Source of the DNA: Phycisphaerae bacterium
Lineage (GTDB): Bacteria > Planctomycetota > Phycisphaerae > Sedimentisphaerales > Anaerobacaceae
DNA: 64,000 nt
Direction of reading: 5' to 3'
NCBI GenBank assembly: GCA_012744475.1
Contig: JAAYBV010000006.1
Coordinates: forward strand, 1-64,000
Part shown: one piece after another, positions 19,700 to 25,022 of the stretch
Layout of the letters: every line of letters begins with the position of its first letter
How positions within the stretch are numbered: the stretch's first letter is position 1
The notes under the pieces: generated by a model
What the model saw: the letters and a program-made list of their open reading frames with translations, nothing else
Told to the model about the DNA's origin: nothing
The model's database searches: none
Position numbers and translations under genes: made by a program

Positions 19700-20704
19700 A
19701 TGAAAACAGAAGAGGTTCACAGTACGGTGGAGTTCGATCTCGATTACGCGCGAAGCGTGATTCGCGCCGAGGCTGACGCGATCGCGGCCATGACGCCGAT
19801 CGTGGACGAGTCGTTCGTCCGCGCTGTGGAGATGATCTACTATTGCAGCGGCTCGTGCATCGTCAGCGGGATCGGCAAGGCCGGGATCATCGGGCGCAAA
19901 ATCAGCGCGACGCTGGCTTCGACGGGCACGCCCAGCCACTTTTTGCACCCGGCCGAAGCGGTGCACGGCGACTTGGGCCGGCTGCGGCAGAACGACGTCG
20001 TGATGGTGCTCAGTTACGGCGGGGAGACCGACGAGATCATTCGCCTGATCAACCTGGTCAAACAGCTTCAGATTCGCCTGATTGCGATCACCAGCGACTG
20101 GGATTCGACGCTGGGCCGCTACAGCGATGTGGTCCTGTGCATGGGCAAGGTCAACGAGGCCTGTCCGCTGGGCGTGGCGCCCAGCGTCTCGACGACCTGC
20201 ATGCTGACGATCGGCGATGCGCTGGCATTCACAGTGATGAAGGCCCGGAAGTTCCGCGTCGAAGACTACGTGCGGTTCCATCCGGGCGGCTCCCTCGGGC
20301 GCCAGTTGATGACGGTCGAGCAGTCCATGATGTTCCAGCCGGGCGAGAAGCTCCCCATCGTGAACGCCGACCAGACCGTCCAGGCGATGCTGACCGCCAC
20401 GCGCGACTTGAAACGCCACGGCGCCGTGATGGTGGTCGATGGCGGCGGACATCTGGCGGGCATCGTCACCGACGGCGATCTGCGCCGGCTCCTGACCCGA
20501 CACGGGACCGCCGCCTTCGAGCGCCGCGTCGGCGACGTGATGACGGCGCCCTGCAAGCGCATCCGTGCCGATGCGCTCGCCTCAGAGGCCACGGCGATTT
20601 TCCACAAGTACCGCATCGACGAGCTGCCCGTGGTGGATGCCGACGACCGGCCGGTCGGACTGATCGACGTGCAGGATATCGTGACGATCAAGGTGGTGGG
20701 ATGA
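19700..20704 (+). CDS. kdsD: D-arabinose 5-phosphate isomerase
   Basis: The 334-residue protein has a SIS domain (about 45-180) with SCIVSGIGKAGIIGRKISATLASTGTPSHFLHPAEAVHGDLG and a VLSYGGETDEI loop, followed by two CBS domains (about 210-334: VQAMLTATRDLKRHGAVMVVDGGGHLAGIVTDGDLRR and VVDADDRPVGLIDVQDI). This is the KdsD/KpsF layout and length. It converts ribulose 5-phosphate to arabinose 5-phosphate, the first step of Kdo synthesis for lipopolysaccharide. GGCGGAG precedes the ATG. kdsC follows after 48 bases. Confidence 0.95.
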   Translation: MKTEEVHSTVEFDLDYARSVIRAEADAIAAMTPIVDESFVRAVEMIYYCSGSCIVSGIGKAGIIGRKISATLASTGTPSHFLHPAEAVHGDLGRLRQNDVVMVLSYGGETDEIIRLINLVKQLQIRLIAITSDWDSTLGRYSDVVLCMGKVNEACPLGVAPSVSTTCMLTIGDALAFTVMKARKFRVEDYVRFHPGGSLGRQLMTVEQSMMFQPGEKLPIVNADQTVQAMLTATRDLKRHGAVMVVDGGGHLAGIVTDGDLRRLLTRHGTAAFERRVGDVMTAPCKRIRADALASEATAIFHKYRIDELPVVDADDRPVGLIDVQDIVTIKVVG

Positions 20705-20752: not shown

Positions 20753-21280
20753 ATGGTGAACAAGCTGAGCACAAACCTGGAGACGATCGAACTGCTCGTG
20801 CTGGACGTGGACGGCGTGCTGACCGACGGGCAGTTGGTCCTGCACGGCGACGGCCGCGAGAGCAAGTGTTTTCACACGCACGACGGGCACGGGATTCGGA
20901 TGTGGCAGCGGGCCGGCGGCAAGACGGCACTGCTCAGCGGCCGCTATTCGGAGCCGACACAGCGCCGCGCCGAGCAGCTGGAAATCGCTCACGTGATCCA
21001 GAACTGTCACTTCAAGCTGCCGGCGCTGGAGGCGCTGCTCGAAGAGCTGCATCTGAAGCGGGAGCACGTCGCGTATGTCGGAGACGATCTGCCGGACCTG
21101 CCGGCGATCCGCTTCGCCGGCTTGGGCGTCGCCACTGCCAACGCGGTGGACGAGGTCAAGCGGGAAGCCGACTATGTCACGATGCGACCGGGCGGGCAGG
21201 GGGCGGTGCGCGAAACGATCGAATACATCCTCAAGAACTCCGGCCGATGGCAGGCCCTGATGGAACGATACCTCGCGTGA
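20753..21280 (+). CDS. kdsC: 3-deoxy-D-manno-octulosonate 8-phosphate phosphatase
   Basis: The 175-residue HAD-family protein begins with motif I LLVLDVDGVLTDG (residues about 17-29), then the family-typical FHTHDGHGIRMWQRAGGKTALLSGR and the motif IV region VAYVGDDLPDLPAIRFAGLGVATANAV. It lacks a cap domain, as do KdsC tetramers. It removes phosphate from Kdo 8-phosphate, following KdsD and the Kdo8P synthase in the pathway; the synthase gene is not in this window. Sixteen bases separate it from the LptC-like gene. Confidence 0.94.
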   Translation: MVNKLSTNLETIELLVLDVDGVLTDGQLVLHGDGRESKCFHTHDGHGIRMWQRAGGKTALLSGRYSEPTQRRAEQLEIAHVIQNCHFKLPALEALLEELHLKREHVAYVGDDLPDLPAIRFAGLGVATANAVDEVKREADYVTMRPGGQGAVRETIEYILKNSGRWQALMERYLA

Positions 21281-21295: not shown

Positions 21296-23488
21296 ATGGG
21301 TACCGTGAATCTACGTAAATTCGCTATCGGTTTCGTCGTGTTGGGCGCCGTGATCCTGGCGTACCTGGCCTTCATGCAGGCCGGCGGCGGACCGGTCATG
21401 GACGCGGACCTGCGAGACCAACTCGCGCGGGAGGTTTCTGATGGCAATGCTGCATCTTCCGGCCGCAACCTCGGACGCATCGGGGATGTTGGTGTCGGCG
21501 GCATCCGGCATACGCACTTGTTCCACACAGACCAGACGGGACGCATCGACCGCGAGTTCGGTTTCGAGCAACTGCTGTACAGCGAAGGCGATCAGTGGCG
21601 GATCACGCATCCGTGGATGAGCCTGCTTCTGGGCCCGGTCAACTGCCGCATCACCGCCGATCGAGGCGAATTGCAGCTCGACACAGCGTTCGATCAGCCC
21701 ACGCCGCACGACGCGACGTTCACGGGAAACGTCGTGATCCGCGTGACTCCGACCGACCCCAACAACCCGCTGGAACTGTTTGTCTACCTCGATGATCTGG
21801 CCTTCATCGCCGACAGCTCGCTGTTCTCCACGACCGGCGCGGTCCGGTTCGTCTCTCGGTATGCGCAGCTCACCGGACGGGGCATGGACCTGCTGTACGA
21901 CGAGGCCCAGCGCCGGCTGGAGCTGTTCCGCGTCAAGGAACTGGAGAATCTGCGGCTGCGCAGCGACCTGTTTGCTTCGCTTCCCGAGTCGGCCGCTTCG
22001 AACGCGGCGTCAGACGAGCCTGAAGCGGAGGCCGCCGAGGTCGCGGTGGCGGGCGCCGACGCGCGCACAGTAGACGCCAACGAGGGCGGGGCGCCGGACT
22101 ACTATGAGTGCGTCCTGCATCGTAACGTGATCATCACGACGCCCGAGCAGAAGGTCACGGTGCGGGACCGTCTTGTCATCGACAACATACTCTGGGCGGG
22201 GCCCGCATCGCCCGAGGCCGAAACCGCCGGGCCCTCCGCGGTCGCGACGGCGGCGAAGACCGAACCCAATGCCGCTGAGCCAAATGAACCGCCGTCTCCC
22301 GTGCGGAAAGCGATGGATACCAGCCCTTCACCGGCGCCGGCGCTCGACGCGATTCCCCCGTCGTTTTTCGACATCGTCGTCACCTGTCACGGCGGCCTGG
22401 TGATTGCGCCGAAGGGTTCGCCCAGTCTGGAGCCCGATCTGGGGGCGCTGGGCCTCGACACTGCCGCCTCTCCGGCCGACGCCAGCGAGCCGACGGCGGT
22501 CGATCCGAACCGTCAGAGTCTCGTTGCCCATCGCATCGACTTCGATGCTTCAACGACGGACACGATGCTGACCGGGCCGGTGCGAATGACCTATGCGCTC
22601 GACCCGAACGACCTGACCGGGCGCGACAGCGGCGGCCAGCGAATGCCCGTGACGGTCAGCGCCGAGGACTCGGTGCGGTTCATCGCGGCCTCGACCCGCG
22701 TCGAGCTGGACGGCAACTGCATCGTGACGCTGCACCAGACCGAGCCGAACTATGCCTACGAGTACATGCTCACGGCGCCGAGGCTGGCGGTCGATCTGTT
22801 CGAAGATCCCAATGCCAAGACGGGCAAGAAGTCCATCGGTCTGAAACGGTTCGAGGCCTCCGGCGGTCCCGTCGCGGTGCGCGCCCTGCGCCACATGGGC
22901 GATGAGTTGATCGGCTGGGTCGAGCTGCATTCGCGCCGTCTCGACTACGAGGGCCGGGAGAAAACGTTTGCGGTCACCGGCCCGGGCGAGATCCGCCTGC
23001 ACAACGGCCAGGCCCCCGAGATCCCGGTCGAGCCGAACGAGTTCAGCCTGCGTCAGCCGTGCTTCGCTTTCATGAGGGACTTCGATTCGCTGGCGTATTC
23101 GGCGCAGACCAACACGATTGTCGCCGATGCCGTCGGCCGTCAGATCCTGCTCGACTATATCCCGCAGATCGACGGCAGCTACAAGAAGCGGCACGTCGAG
23201 GCCGACGCCGGACGCATCGAGATCGCCCTGACCCAGACCGAACGCGGACGTATGGAACTGCTCTCGCTCACTGCTTCCGAAGGCATCCGGTACGAGGATC
23301 CGCTCAATCGCTTCGATGGCGCGATCCTGTTCTACGATCACCCGCAGACGCTCGTCACCGTAAACGGCGACGGCCGCCAGTCGTGCTCGTTCAACGGCGC
23401 TTATGTCGACCGCATCCGCATGAACCTCACCACCGGTGCGACCAAGGCCGAAGTGCTCGGGCCCAGCACGATCCAGATCCGTCCCTGA
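21296..23488 (+). CDS. Large LptC/OstA-like envelope protein
   Basis: The 730-residue protein has one N-terminal transmembrane helix (residues about 7-27, FAIGFVVLGAVILAYLAFMQA) and a long periplasmic beta-rich part with no catalytic motif. Position right after kdsD-kdsC and the single anchor point to LptC, which guides LPS between membranes. LptC is only about 190 residues, so this is nearly four times longer. Segments such as CRITADRGELQLD, ATFTGNVVIRVT and VHLKG-free TLHQTEPNYAYEYMLTAPRLAVDLFED recall the LptA/OstA repeats that describe lipid bridges. Low-complexity Ala/Glu/Pro linkers (about 220-250 and 300-350) separate the modules. The Lpt assignment is inferred from context and shape. 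Confidence 0.65.
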   Translation: MGTVNLRKFAIGFVVLGAVILAYLAFMQAGGGPVMDADLRDQLAREVSDGNAASSGRNLGRIGDVGVGGIRHTHLFHTDQTGRIDREFGFEQLLYSEGDQWRITHPWMSLLLGPVNCRITADRGELQLDTAFDQPTPHDATFTGNVVIRVTPTDPNNPLELFVYLDDLAFIADSSLFSTTGAVRFVSRYAQLTGRGMDLLYDEAQRRLELFRVKELENLRLRSDLFASLPESAASNAASDEPEAEAAEVAVAGADARTVDANEGGAPDYYECVLHRNVIITTPEQKVTVRDRLVIDNILWAGPASPEAETAGPSAVATAAKTEPNAAEPNEPPSPVRKAMDTSPSPAPALDAIPPSFFDIVVTCHGGLVIAPKGSPSLEPDLGALGLDTAASPADASEPTAVDPNRQSLVAHRIDFDASTTDTMLTGPVRMTYALDPNDLTGRDSGGQRMPVTVSAEDSVRFIAASTRVELDGNCIVTLHQTEPNYAYEYMLTAPRLAVDLFEDPNAKTGKKSIGLKRFEASGGPVAVRALRHMGDELIGWVELHSRRLDYEGREKTFAVTGPGEIRLHNGQAPEIPVEPNEFSLRQPCFAFMRDFDSLAYSAQTNTIVADAVGRQILLDYIPQIDGSYKKRHVEADAGRIEIALTQTERGRMELLSLTASEGIRYEDPLNRFDGAILFYDHPQTLVTVNGDGRQSCSFNGAYVDRIRMNLTTGATKAEVLGPSTIQIRP

Positions 23489-23597: not shown

Positions 23598-23671
<74 letters not shown>

Positions 23672-23687
23672 GTCAGTTCATACGAAT

Positions 23688-25022
23688 TCAACCCACCGTC
23701 GTTAGATCGAGGAAAACGATGACGGACGGGTTGCCGACGGGTGCGTAGTGGCCGGTGAAGGCCAGGCGGCCCGTTTGACGGTTCACGCGGAAGACGGCGA
23801 CGTTGTCGCTGCGCTGATTGCAGCAGTAGAGGAACCGGCCGAAGGGGTCGAAATTGAAGCTGCGCGGATAGTTGCCTTGCGTCCATTCCTCGCCGACGTA
23901 GGTCAGGGCGCCGGTGTCCCCGATGGAGAAGATCGCGATGCTGTCGTGCAGGCGGTTACCCGCGTAGAGGAAGCGGCCGTCGGCAGAGACTATGATCGCG
24001 GAGCAGAAGTTGCTGCCGGCGAAGGCGGTCGGCAGGGTGGAAACAGTGTGCCGGGCGGCCAGCCGGCCCTTCTCGGAATCATAGTCGAACAGGACGATGT
24101 TCGAGCCTTCCTCCTGAATGGAATAGAACCAGTGTCTGTTCGGATGGAAGCAGAAGTGGCGGGGCCCATCTCCCGGCGGCAGTGAAACGGCGTGCGGATC
24201 ATTCGCCGCGAGCACGCCGTGGCGATCGTCGAACCTCCAGAGGAAGATCTGGTCCAGGCCGAGATCGACGTGCAGAACGAAGCGTCCCGAAGGATCGGCC
24301 TGGATCATGTGTGCGTGCGTCCGGTCGTGTCCGCTGAACGCGAAGCTGCCCGGCGGGGCGTTCGTTGCCCTCGTCGGTCCGAGCGTCCCCGCGTCCACCT
24401 TGACGTCCGTGGCGGCGCCCAGGCCGCCGTCGGGCAGGATCGGCAGCACCGCCACGGAACCGCCGAAGTAGTTGGCCACCAGCAGGAACCTGCCCGAAGG
24501 ATGCACGCTCACGTAGGTGGGCCCGGCGCCGCCGGAGCGCACGGTGTTGAGCAGTCTCAACTGCCCATCAGCGGGGCCGATCGCGAAGGCGCTGACGGTT
24601 CCTTCTCTGTCGTCGCCCACGCGGTCCGTTTCGTTGGCGGAGTACAGGCGCGTTCCGGCGGCATTCAACGCCAGACAGCTTGGGCTCGTCCCTGACTCGT
24701 AGACGCCGCAAGGGGTCATGTCGCCGGTGGTGCGATCCACCCGGAACAGATGAATGCCGCGTCCGTTTCCGGGAGGCAGATCGATCTGTGTCGGCAGCAC
24801 GTCACGAAGTGGCGAACTGAATGTGCCCACATAGGCCATGAGCGGTTCTTCCGTCGCGGCGGATTGAGCAGTGAGCGTCTGTGCCGTCAGGGATGCGCCG
24901 CCTGCGACCACGACGGCAAACCCCAGGAACCAGCGTCTCGAAATCACCGACGGGATCGGGTTGGAGGCACATTGGGCCCCTTGACGGGAAGCAGCTGACA
25001 GGAGTCTTGGTTTATCGGCCAT
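23688..25022 (-). CDS. Tat-exported lactonase-fold (6-phosphogluconolactonase-like) beta-propeller protein
   Basis: The 444-residue protein has a twin-arginine signal (SRRWFLGFAVVVAGGASLTA, residues about 29-48) and then a seven-bladed propeller of the YbhE/lactonase family. Typical blade segments are MAYVGTFSS, GIHLFRVDRTTGDMTPCGV, PSCLALNAAGTRLYSANE, GPTYVSVHPSGRFLLVANYFGGSV, GPRHFCFHPNRHWFYSIQEEGSNIV and YPRSFNFDPFGRFLYCCNQRSDNVAVFRVN. Family members hydrolyse 6-phosphogluconolactone or other sugar lactones. Export suggests a periplasmic lactone from sugar oxidation, which fits the neighbouring exported oxidoreductases. A TATAAT box ends only 8 bases before the start codon and no ribosome-binding site is visible, so the mRNA may be leaderless. 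Confidence 0.85.
   Translation of the reverse strand: MADKPRLLSAASRQGAQCASNPIPSVISRRWFLGFAVVVAGGASLTAQTLTAQSAATEEPLMAYVGTFSSPLRDVLPTQIDLPPGNGRGIHLFRVDRTTGDMTPCGVYESGTSPSCLALNAAGTRLYSANETDRVGDDREGTVSAFAIGPADGQLRLLNTVRSGGAGPTYVSVHPSGRFLLVANYFGGSVAVLPILPDGGLGAATDVKVDAGTLGPTRATNAPPGSFAFSGHDRTHAHMIQADPSGRFVLHVDLGLDQIFLWRFDDRHGVLAANDPHAVSLPPGDGPRHFCFHPNRHWFYSIQEEGSNIVLFDYDSEKGRLAARHTVSTLPTAFAGSNFCSAIIVSADGRFLYAGNRLHDSIAIFSIGDTGALTYVGEEWTQGNYPRSFNFDPFGRFLYCCNQRSDNVAVFRVNRQTGRLAFTGHYAPVGNPSVIVFLDLTTVG

Follow-up and report, generated by a model that had tools for sequence, protein, structure and literature searches.

The jellyroll bridge of the lipopolysaccharide transport (Lpt) system is already well known, as are its components LptC and LptA. 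E. coli LptC is a protein of about 190 aa with a single jellyroll. LetB forms a tunnel of MCE domains for phospholipids, and its fold is unrelated to that of the protein described here. The Lpt system is presented, in the part of one article available to us, as a set of small interacting proteins, contrasted with single-polypeptide bridges such as that of LetAB (PMC8727689), and how many LptA units the bridge contains is given as unknown in the accessible part of a review (PMC10094684). Excerpts of two further papers concern Planctomycetes: work of 2012 reported LptD from every planctomycete genome that it examined (PMC3422733); in a later survey, the Lpt system of this phylum was described as 'largely reduced' (PMC8871954).

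We describe here, in a genome of the order Sedimentisphaerales, a 730-aa protein that is probably a natural LptC-LptA-type fusion and would hold most of the lipopolysaccharide bridge in one chain. In this organism, lipopolysaccharide apparently crosses the gap between the two membranes on one long protein, whereas well-studied bacteria string several small, separate proteins together for this task. It would resemble LetB in that a single polypeptide bridges the inner and outer membranes (PMC8727689, seen in part). The single-chain fusion appears to be the new part, since the open-licence papers searched, some of them available as excerpts, yielded no description of LptC and LptA being fused in nature, subscription journals lying mostly outside the search.

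The gene is located on contig JAAYBV010000006.1, in a stretch of 64,000 nucleotides (the window). It occupies the third position of a kdsD-kdsC-X unit:

19700-20704, + strand: kdsD, arabinose-5-phosphate isomerase, 334 aa (NCBIfam TIGR00393; SIS and CBS domains)
20753-21280, + strand: kdsC, Kdo-8-phosphate phosphatase, 175 aa (NCBIfam TIGR01670)
21296-23488, + strand: probable fused LptC-LptA-type protein, 730 aa, ATG start, third in the unit (open reading frame, conservation, model, Pfam matches of relatives)
23598-23671, + strand: tRNA-Arg(tct), 3' of the kdsD-kdsC-fusion unit (ARAGORN)
23688-25022, opposite strand: gene after the tRNA-Arg (open reading frame list)

In the NCBIfam scan, kdsD passed the cut-off of TIGR00393 kpsF (280.3 bits, cut-off 203.7) and stayed below that of the KdsD equivalog model PRK10892 (278.9 bits, cut-off 505). 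Likewise, kdsC passed TIGR01670 (142 bits, cut-off 106.95) and stayed below the KdsC equivalog PRK09484 (149.6 bits, cut-off 208). Only 15 bases separate the kdsC stop, which ends at 21280, from the fusion ATG. A preliminary description of this DNA had placed the protein third in a Kds unit and had remarked that lptA was missing next door. Both statements hold: no lptA adjoins the fusion gene, whose 3' neighbours are the tRNA-Arg and then a gene on the opposite strand. No tRNA was found in 15 related loci, and the tRNA-Arg is therefore not a conserved neighbour. Scans for promoters (one promoter-like site, against a mean of 0.6 and sd of 1.0 in shuffles) and for terminators (no terminator-like site, against a mean of 2.5) gave results within chance.

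Protein searches found relatives of the fusion protein in 146 of the 161 genomes of the order, and in 63 of the 66 good-quality ones. This distribution shows that the open reading frame is not a chance one. When 392 genomes of the phylum were searched with a profile, 20 matched: the window's own, ten of the same order and nine of the same class. None of these 20 lay outside the class, and at least 20 genomes of the same class gave no match. The protein from Phycisphaerales bacterium Planc_01 is 72% identical, and further relatives occur in several Phycisphaerae and Sedimentisphaerales assemblies. The fusion gene is present at 19 of 21 loci (cut by a contig end at one of them), with kdsC directly upstream in all 19 and kdsD seen in 15; the other two loci, L077 and L078, encode a different, mosaic protein. 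kdsC was also seen at five of ten additional loci from the order (L089-L098), the remaining five lacking upstream sequence. Among ten more distant loci (L099-L108), kdsC lies directly upstream in six and L104 has kdsD only, while no kdsC match was obtained for L102, L105 and L108 despite about 0.8-1.1 kb of upstream sequence. The length of the fusion differs between lineages, from about 700 to over 1100 aa: extracted relatives measure 698 to 1149 aa, a contig-end fragment left out, and open frames extend up to 1217 aa. Two genomes of the same family, G036 (L044, L088) and G054 (L087, contig C20), carry two fusion-type proteins each: a copy of 712 or 699 aa that follows kdsC, and another at a separate site that is longer (1068 aa; 1052 aa as an open frame).

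An AlphaFold model of the window protein was obtained from 19 sequences (mean pLDDT 71.1, pTM 0.64). Together with hydropathy and structural alignment, it delimits the following parts:

21311-21379, + strand: N-terminal transmembrane helix, residues 6-28 (model helix, hydropathy)
21503-21982, + strand: predicted LptC-like beta-jellyroll (beta-taco), residues 70-229 (VIA-align; PF06835 in relatives)
21968-22090, + strand: Ala-rich low-confidence linker, residues 225-265 (pLDDT below 50; Ala+Pro share 0.37)
22097-22195, + strand: beta strands modelled with confidence and flanked by linkers, residues 268-300 (pLDDT of the block 87-91 when the whole protein is modelled)
22199-22327, + strand: Ala/Pro-rich low-confidence linker, residues 302-344 (pLDDT below 50; Ala+Pro share 0.44)
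22439-22498, + strand: Ala/Pro-rich low-confidence linker, residues 382-401 (pLDDT below 50; Ala+Pro share 0.40)
22640-23446, + strand: predicted LptA/LptD-N-terminal-type beta-jellyroll, residues 449-717 (VIA-align)

The 19-residue hydropathy maximum (2.55, from residue 9) coincides with the model helix, the next best value elsewhere being 1.45. As in LptC, a single N-terminal transmembrane helix is thus followed by a domain predicted to be periplasmic. Outside this helix, the model is made of coil and beta strands (residues 74-221, 268-300, 360-372, 407-570 and 589-719), plus short helices at 37-48, 347-351 and 437-441, in agreement with the one helix and beta-rich remainder described previously. 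The longest low-confidence stretches cover residues 28-62, 225-265, 302-344 and 382-401. The Ala/Pro-rich linkers that had been announced were recovered in part: the Ala+Pro share of the four stretches pooled is 0.33, against 0.14 in the remainder, and three of them reach 0.37-0.44, but the first (28-70) has only 0.14. The claim that the protein is four times the usual size is accurate with respect to E. coli LptC, and the solved LptC chains among our structural matches have 125-175 residues. With 730 aa and a second jellyroll region, the protein departs from the usual single-jellyroll layout. Five cysteines are conserved among 28 aligned family sequences (C364 in 28/28, C117 in 26/28, C272 and C697 in 24/28, C589 in 23/28), which is unusual for a protein of LptC/LptA type; they may staple the units together.

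Seven structures were matched by Foldseek at E ≤0.001, six LptD chains (one of them 4q35, which we take to be LptD) and one teneurin, and chains of LptA and LptC begin at E 1.3e-3, with a probability of 1.00. In VIA-align comparisons, which covered mainly residues 427-719 and leave room for other folds, unrelated folds appear from Z 8.1. Above this background stand, for the N-terminal part, the LptC chains 6mit_C (Z 11.9, rmsd 3.1, 142 residues, model 70-229) and 3my2 of E. coli (Z 10.9, rmsd 3.2, 122 residues, model 85-223) and, for the C-terminal part, LptD 7omm_A, its best match (Z 13.3, rmsd 2.3, 155 residues, model 489-713), and E. coli LptA 2r1a_C (Z 10.7, rmsd 2.9, 126 residues, model 540-701). 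LptC 6mjp_C gave Z 12.0, but with an rmsd of 21.6 across helix and domain. A further match to the LptA/LptD_N fold, 4uu4, gave Z 9.9, and model residues 449-603 aligned with LptA 7qs6 at Z 8.2, no better than unrelated rows. The model hence predicts an LptC fold at residues 70-229 and an LptA/LptD-N fold at 486-717, and the jellyrolls for which an AlphaFold check had been proposed are found at both ends of the chain. The middle region (225-520), folded without the flanking domains, gave a poor model (pLDDT 51.9), in which the strands at 268-300 fell to a pLDDT of about 49-61; a continuous groove running from the LptC part to the LptA part is therefore hypothetical.

At the sequence level, the window protein has no match in Pfam or among PDB sequences, and its NCBIfam LptC match is sub-threshold (12.2 bits, cut-off 38, residues 95-209). 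Both families are recognized within a single open reading frame of the same order, L045 (995 aa), which at the two ends shares 28% and 27% identity with the window protein: PF06835 (LptC) matches at 101-211 (29.7 bits, cut-off 21) and PF03968 (LptA/LptD_N) at 614-707 (40.4 bits, cut-off 20.4, E 4e-10). Another relative, L083 (1040 aa), encoded directly after kdsD-kdsC, has PF03968 at 282-404 (33.4 bits) and no PF06835 match. We scanned 28 family members, the window protein included, hand-chosen from fetched sets of 37 (counting the window protein), 4 and 19 sequences with several contigs in common; at E ≤0.05, hmmscan detected PF06835 in 14/28 and PF03968 in 5/28. Over the order, PF06835 matches 40 of 159 genomes, 34 of them above cut-off. 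Placed by hand against the fusion-ORF positions, 32 of these matches belong to the fusion ORF, 31 of them overlapping it and one sharing its frame; five are in long frames of 788-1044 aa that have no fusion position listed, and three are on a separate small gene. Since the window protein escapes Pfam's models of LptC and LptA, and LptC is detected in only these 40 genomes, the fusion could partly explain the 'largely reduced' verdict, as worded in the excerpt available (PMC8871954).

No repeat common to the LptC part and the rest of the protein was detected at the sequence level. Two weak internal repeats (403-507 with 538-651, E 1.8e-4, probability 48%; 458-557 with 597-686, E 4.5e-4, probability 33%) are suggestive, and self-BLAST of five long relatives returned no internal repeat at E ≤1e-3. 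In the relative L039, window residues 404-569 match at 615-774 and residues 415-729 at 839-1148, a double match that would fit added units. A profile of the family gave nothing usable against LptD (probability 0.1%) or LptF (0.2%) of the same genome, or against an alignment of small LptC-like proteins (2.5%).

Compared with LptC (PF06835; 3my2 of E. coli, and 6mit and 6mjp from LptBFGC complexes), the protein has a similar N-terminal helix and jellyroll, and its gene likewise follows kdsD-kdsC, whereas it adds in the same chain Ala/Pro linkers and an LptA-type jellyroll region. It resembles LptA (PF03968, TIGR03002; 2r1a) in its C-terminal fold, and its relatives L045 and L083 match PF03968. 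Unlike a separate soluble LptA with its own signal peptide, the LptA-type jellyroll sits inside the 730-aa ORF; according to the model it would be neither free nor separately secreted, the LptC part holding it at the inner membrane. The N-terminal jellyroll of LptD (7omm, 4q35) is the closest structure to the C-terminal part, but the fusion has no outer-membrane barrel and a separate protein of the genome is probably LptD.

The other components of the machine are scattered in the window's genome. LptB is encoded on contig C87 (320.8 bits, cut-off 240), LptF and LptG on C115 (both over cut-off) and a Kdo transferase family protein on C99 (PF04413, 214.4 bits). A 978-aa protein on C44 is probably LptD: its PF03968 match reached 22.8 bits (cut-off 20.4) when the genome was searched, but a scan of the protein sequence stayed just below the cut-offs for PF03968 (19.3 bits) and PF04453 (16.2 bits). 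Used as a query, this protein matched in 145 of the 159 genomes of the order, the 14 without a match including those that hold L045 (G128) and L083 (G135).

Several points were counted against the fusion-bridge reading: the lack of a Pfam or PDB sequence match of its own beside a sub-threshold NCBIfam one, the absence of a repeat common to the LptC part and the rest, a separate small LptC-like gene in the genome, the weakness of LptA searches in this clade, the modest LptD assignment, the poor model of the middle region and the 14 genomes without an LptD match. The 730-aa protein could instead be an LptC with a lengthened arm, the bridge to LptD being completed by a separate, divergent LptA. 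We consider this unlikely, though worth keeping in mind. Such an LptA might escape detection: PF03968 sees an LptD-type protein in 4/159 genomes against 145/159 for the genome's own LptD, which makes the absence of a lone LptA weak evidence, and TIGR03002 exceeded its cut-off in just one of 14 control genomes. Nevertheless, in the window's genome PF03968 matched nothing besides the probable LptD and TIGR03002 (LptA) nothing at E ≤1, and the six genomes of the order (159 searched) in which PF03968 matched yielded four LptD-type proteins and two fusion ORFs. At 15 loci on named contigs, the ORF listed first downstream lies on the opposite strand in 11 cases and on the same strand in L058, L059, L061 and L070; these four same-strand ORFs and two further ones contain no LptA family in Pfam. 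PF06835 had no match in the window's genome either. The search for an ordinary lptA-lptC pair, proposed in the preliminary description, thus found none with the three models; it did leave, besides the weakness of the LptA models here, a small LptC-like gene on contig C89 (L123:6186-7025 of genome G000, 279 aa).

That small protein might be the true LptC, and the 730-aa protein a different lipid carrier of the same fold. Two relatives of the C89 protein reach the PF06835 cut-off (24.5 bits in G023:C63, 21 bits in G031), but no Pfam family matches the C89 protein, and the small family (about 260-290 aa; L079, L080, L081, L123, L124) is patchy, occurring in 32/159 genomes, against a near-universal fusion beside kdsD-kdsC. 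Nor is LptA encoded next to it in the cases scanned: of three neighbour proteins, two look secreted, with PASTA domains (L079) or a sub-threshold dockerin match (L124), and one belongs to no Pfam family; no Pfam match was obtained for the gene beside that of the C89 protein. This arrangement seems to us improbable. We give still less credence to a bridge in which Lpt-type folds serve another lipid in place of lipopolysaccharide. In its favour, the grooves of jellyrolls are general carriers of amphiphiles. An Lpt-like system also occurs in Borrelia, an organism without lipopolysaccharide, according to the part of PMC10353723 available. The co-location of the fusion gene with kdsD and kdsC, which serve Kdo synthesis, and the presence of a Kdo transferase family protein favour lipopolysaccharide as the cargo.

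Under the fusion-bridge reading, the N-terminal helix would anchor the protein in the inner membrane, and the LptC-like jellyroll, docked on LptB2FG, would take lipopolysaccharide from LptF. The lipid would then cross the periplasm on the covalently attached jellyroll region, with flexible Ala/Pro linkers as spacers, and the C-terminal part would hand it over to the LptD jellyroll. The earlier suggestion that LptC and the LptA bridge are combined in one polypeptide is upheld as to the fusion itself, by the jellyrolls of the model and the Pfam pair of L045; that the fusion entirely replaces free LptA goes further and is inferred. A natural fusion fixes both the LptC-to-bridge ratio and the chain length, so that bridge length could be deduced from the gene and set against periplasm width. 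We put forward tentatively, as a rather doubtful extension, that the entire bridge from LptF to LptD is one covalent chain, that the number of jellyrolls, variable between lineages, acts as a ruler for periplasm width and that free LptA is gone.

LptC-like domains are found in other contexts as well. A 2220-aa ORF of the window's genome (L035:3944-10606, G000:C117) combines an M56 (BlaR1-type) peptidase, secretin/GspD-type stretches and an LptC-like domain 45% identical to window residues 63-205. Mosaic relatives in other genomes (L077:5873-10279 and L078:54-7253) have kept this domain. In the probable LptD (L036:2383-5319, G000:C44), the LptA/LptD_N match covers residues 283-382 and the barrel match starts at 513; the N-terminal part seems longer than that of E. 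coli LptD. An apparent 942-aa frame suggestive of an LptF-LptG fusion was rejected, a TGA at codon 532 separating ORFs of 531 and 369 aa. In the 531-aa LptF (L037:4807-6402, G000:C115), the PF03739 match is split, profile positions 1-213 lying at residues 7-219 and positions 249-353 starting from residue 422, with about 165 extra residues in between.
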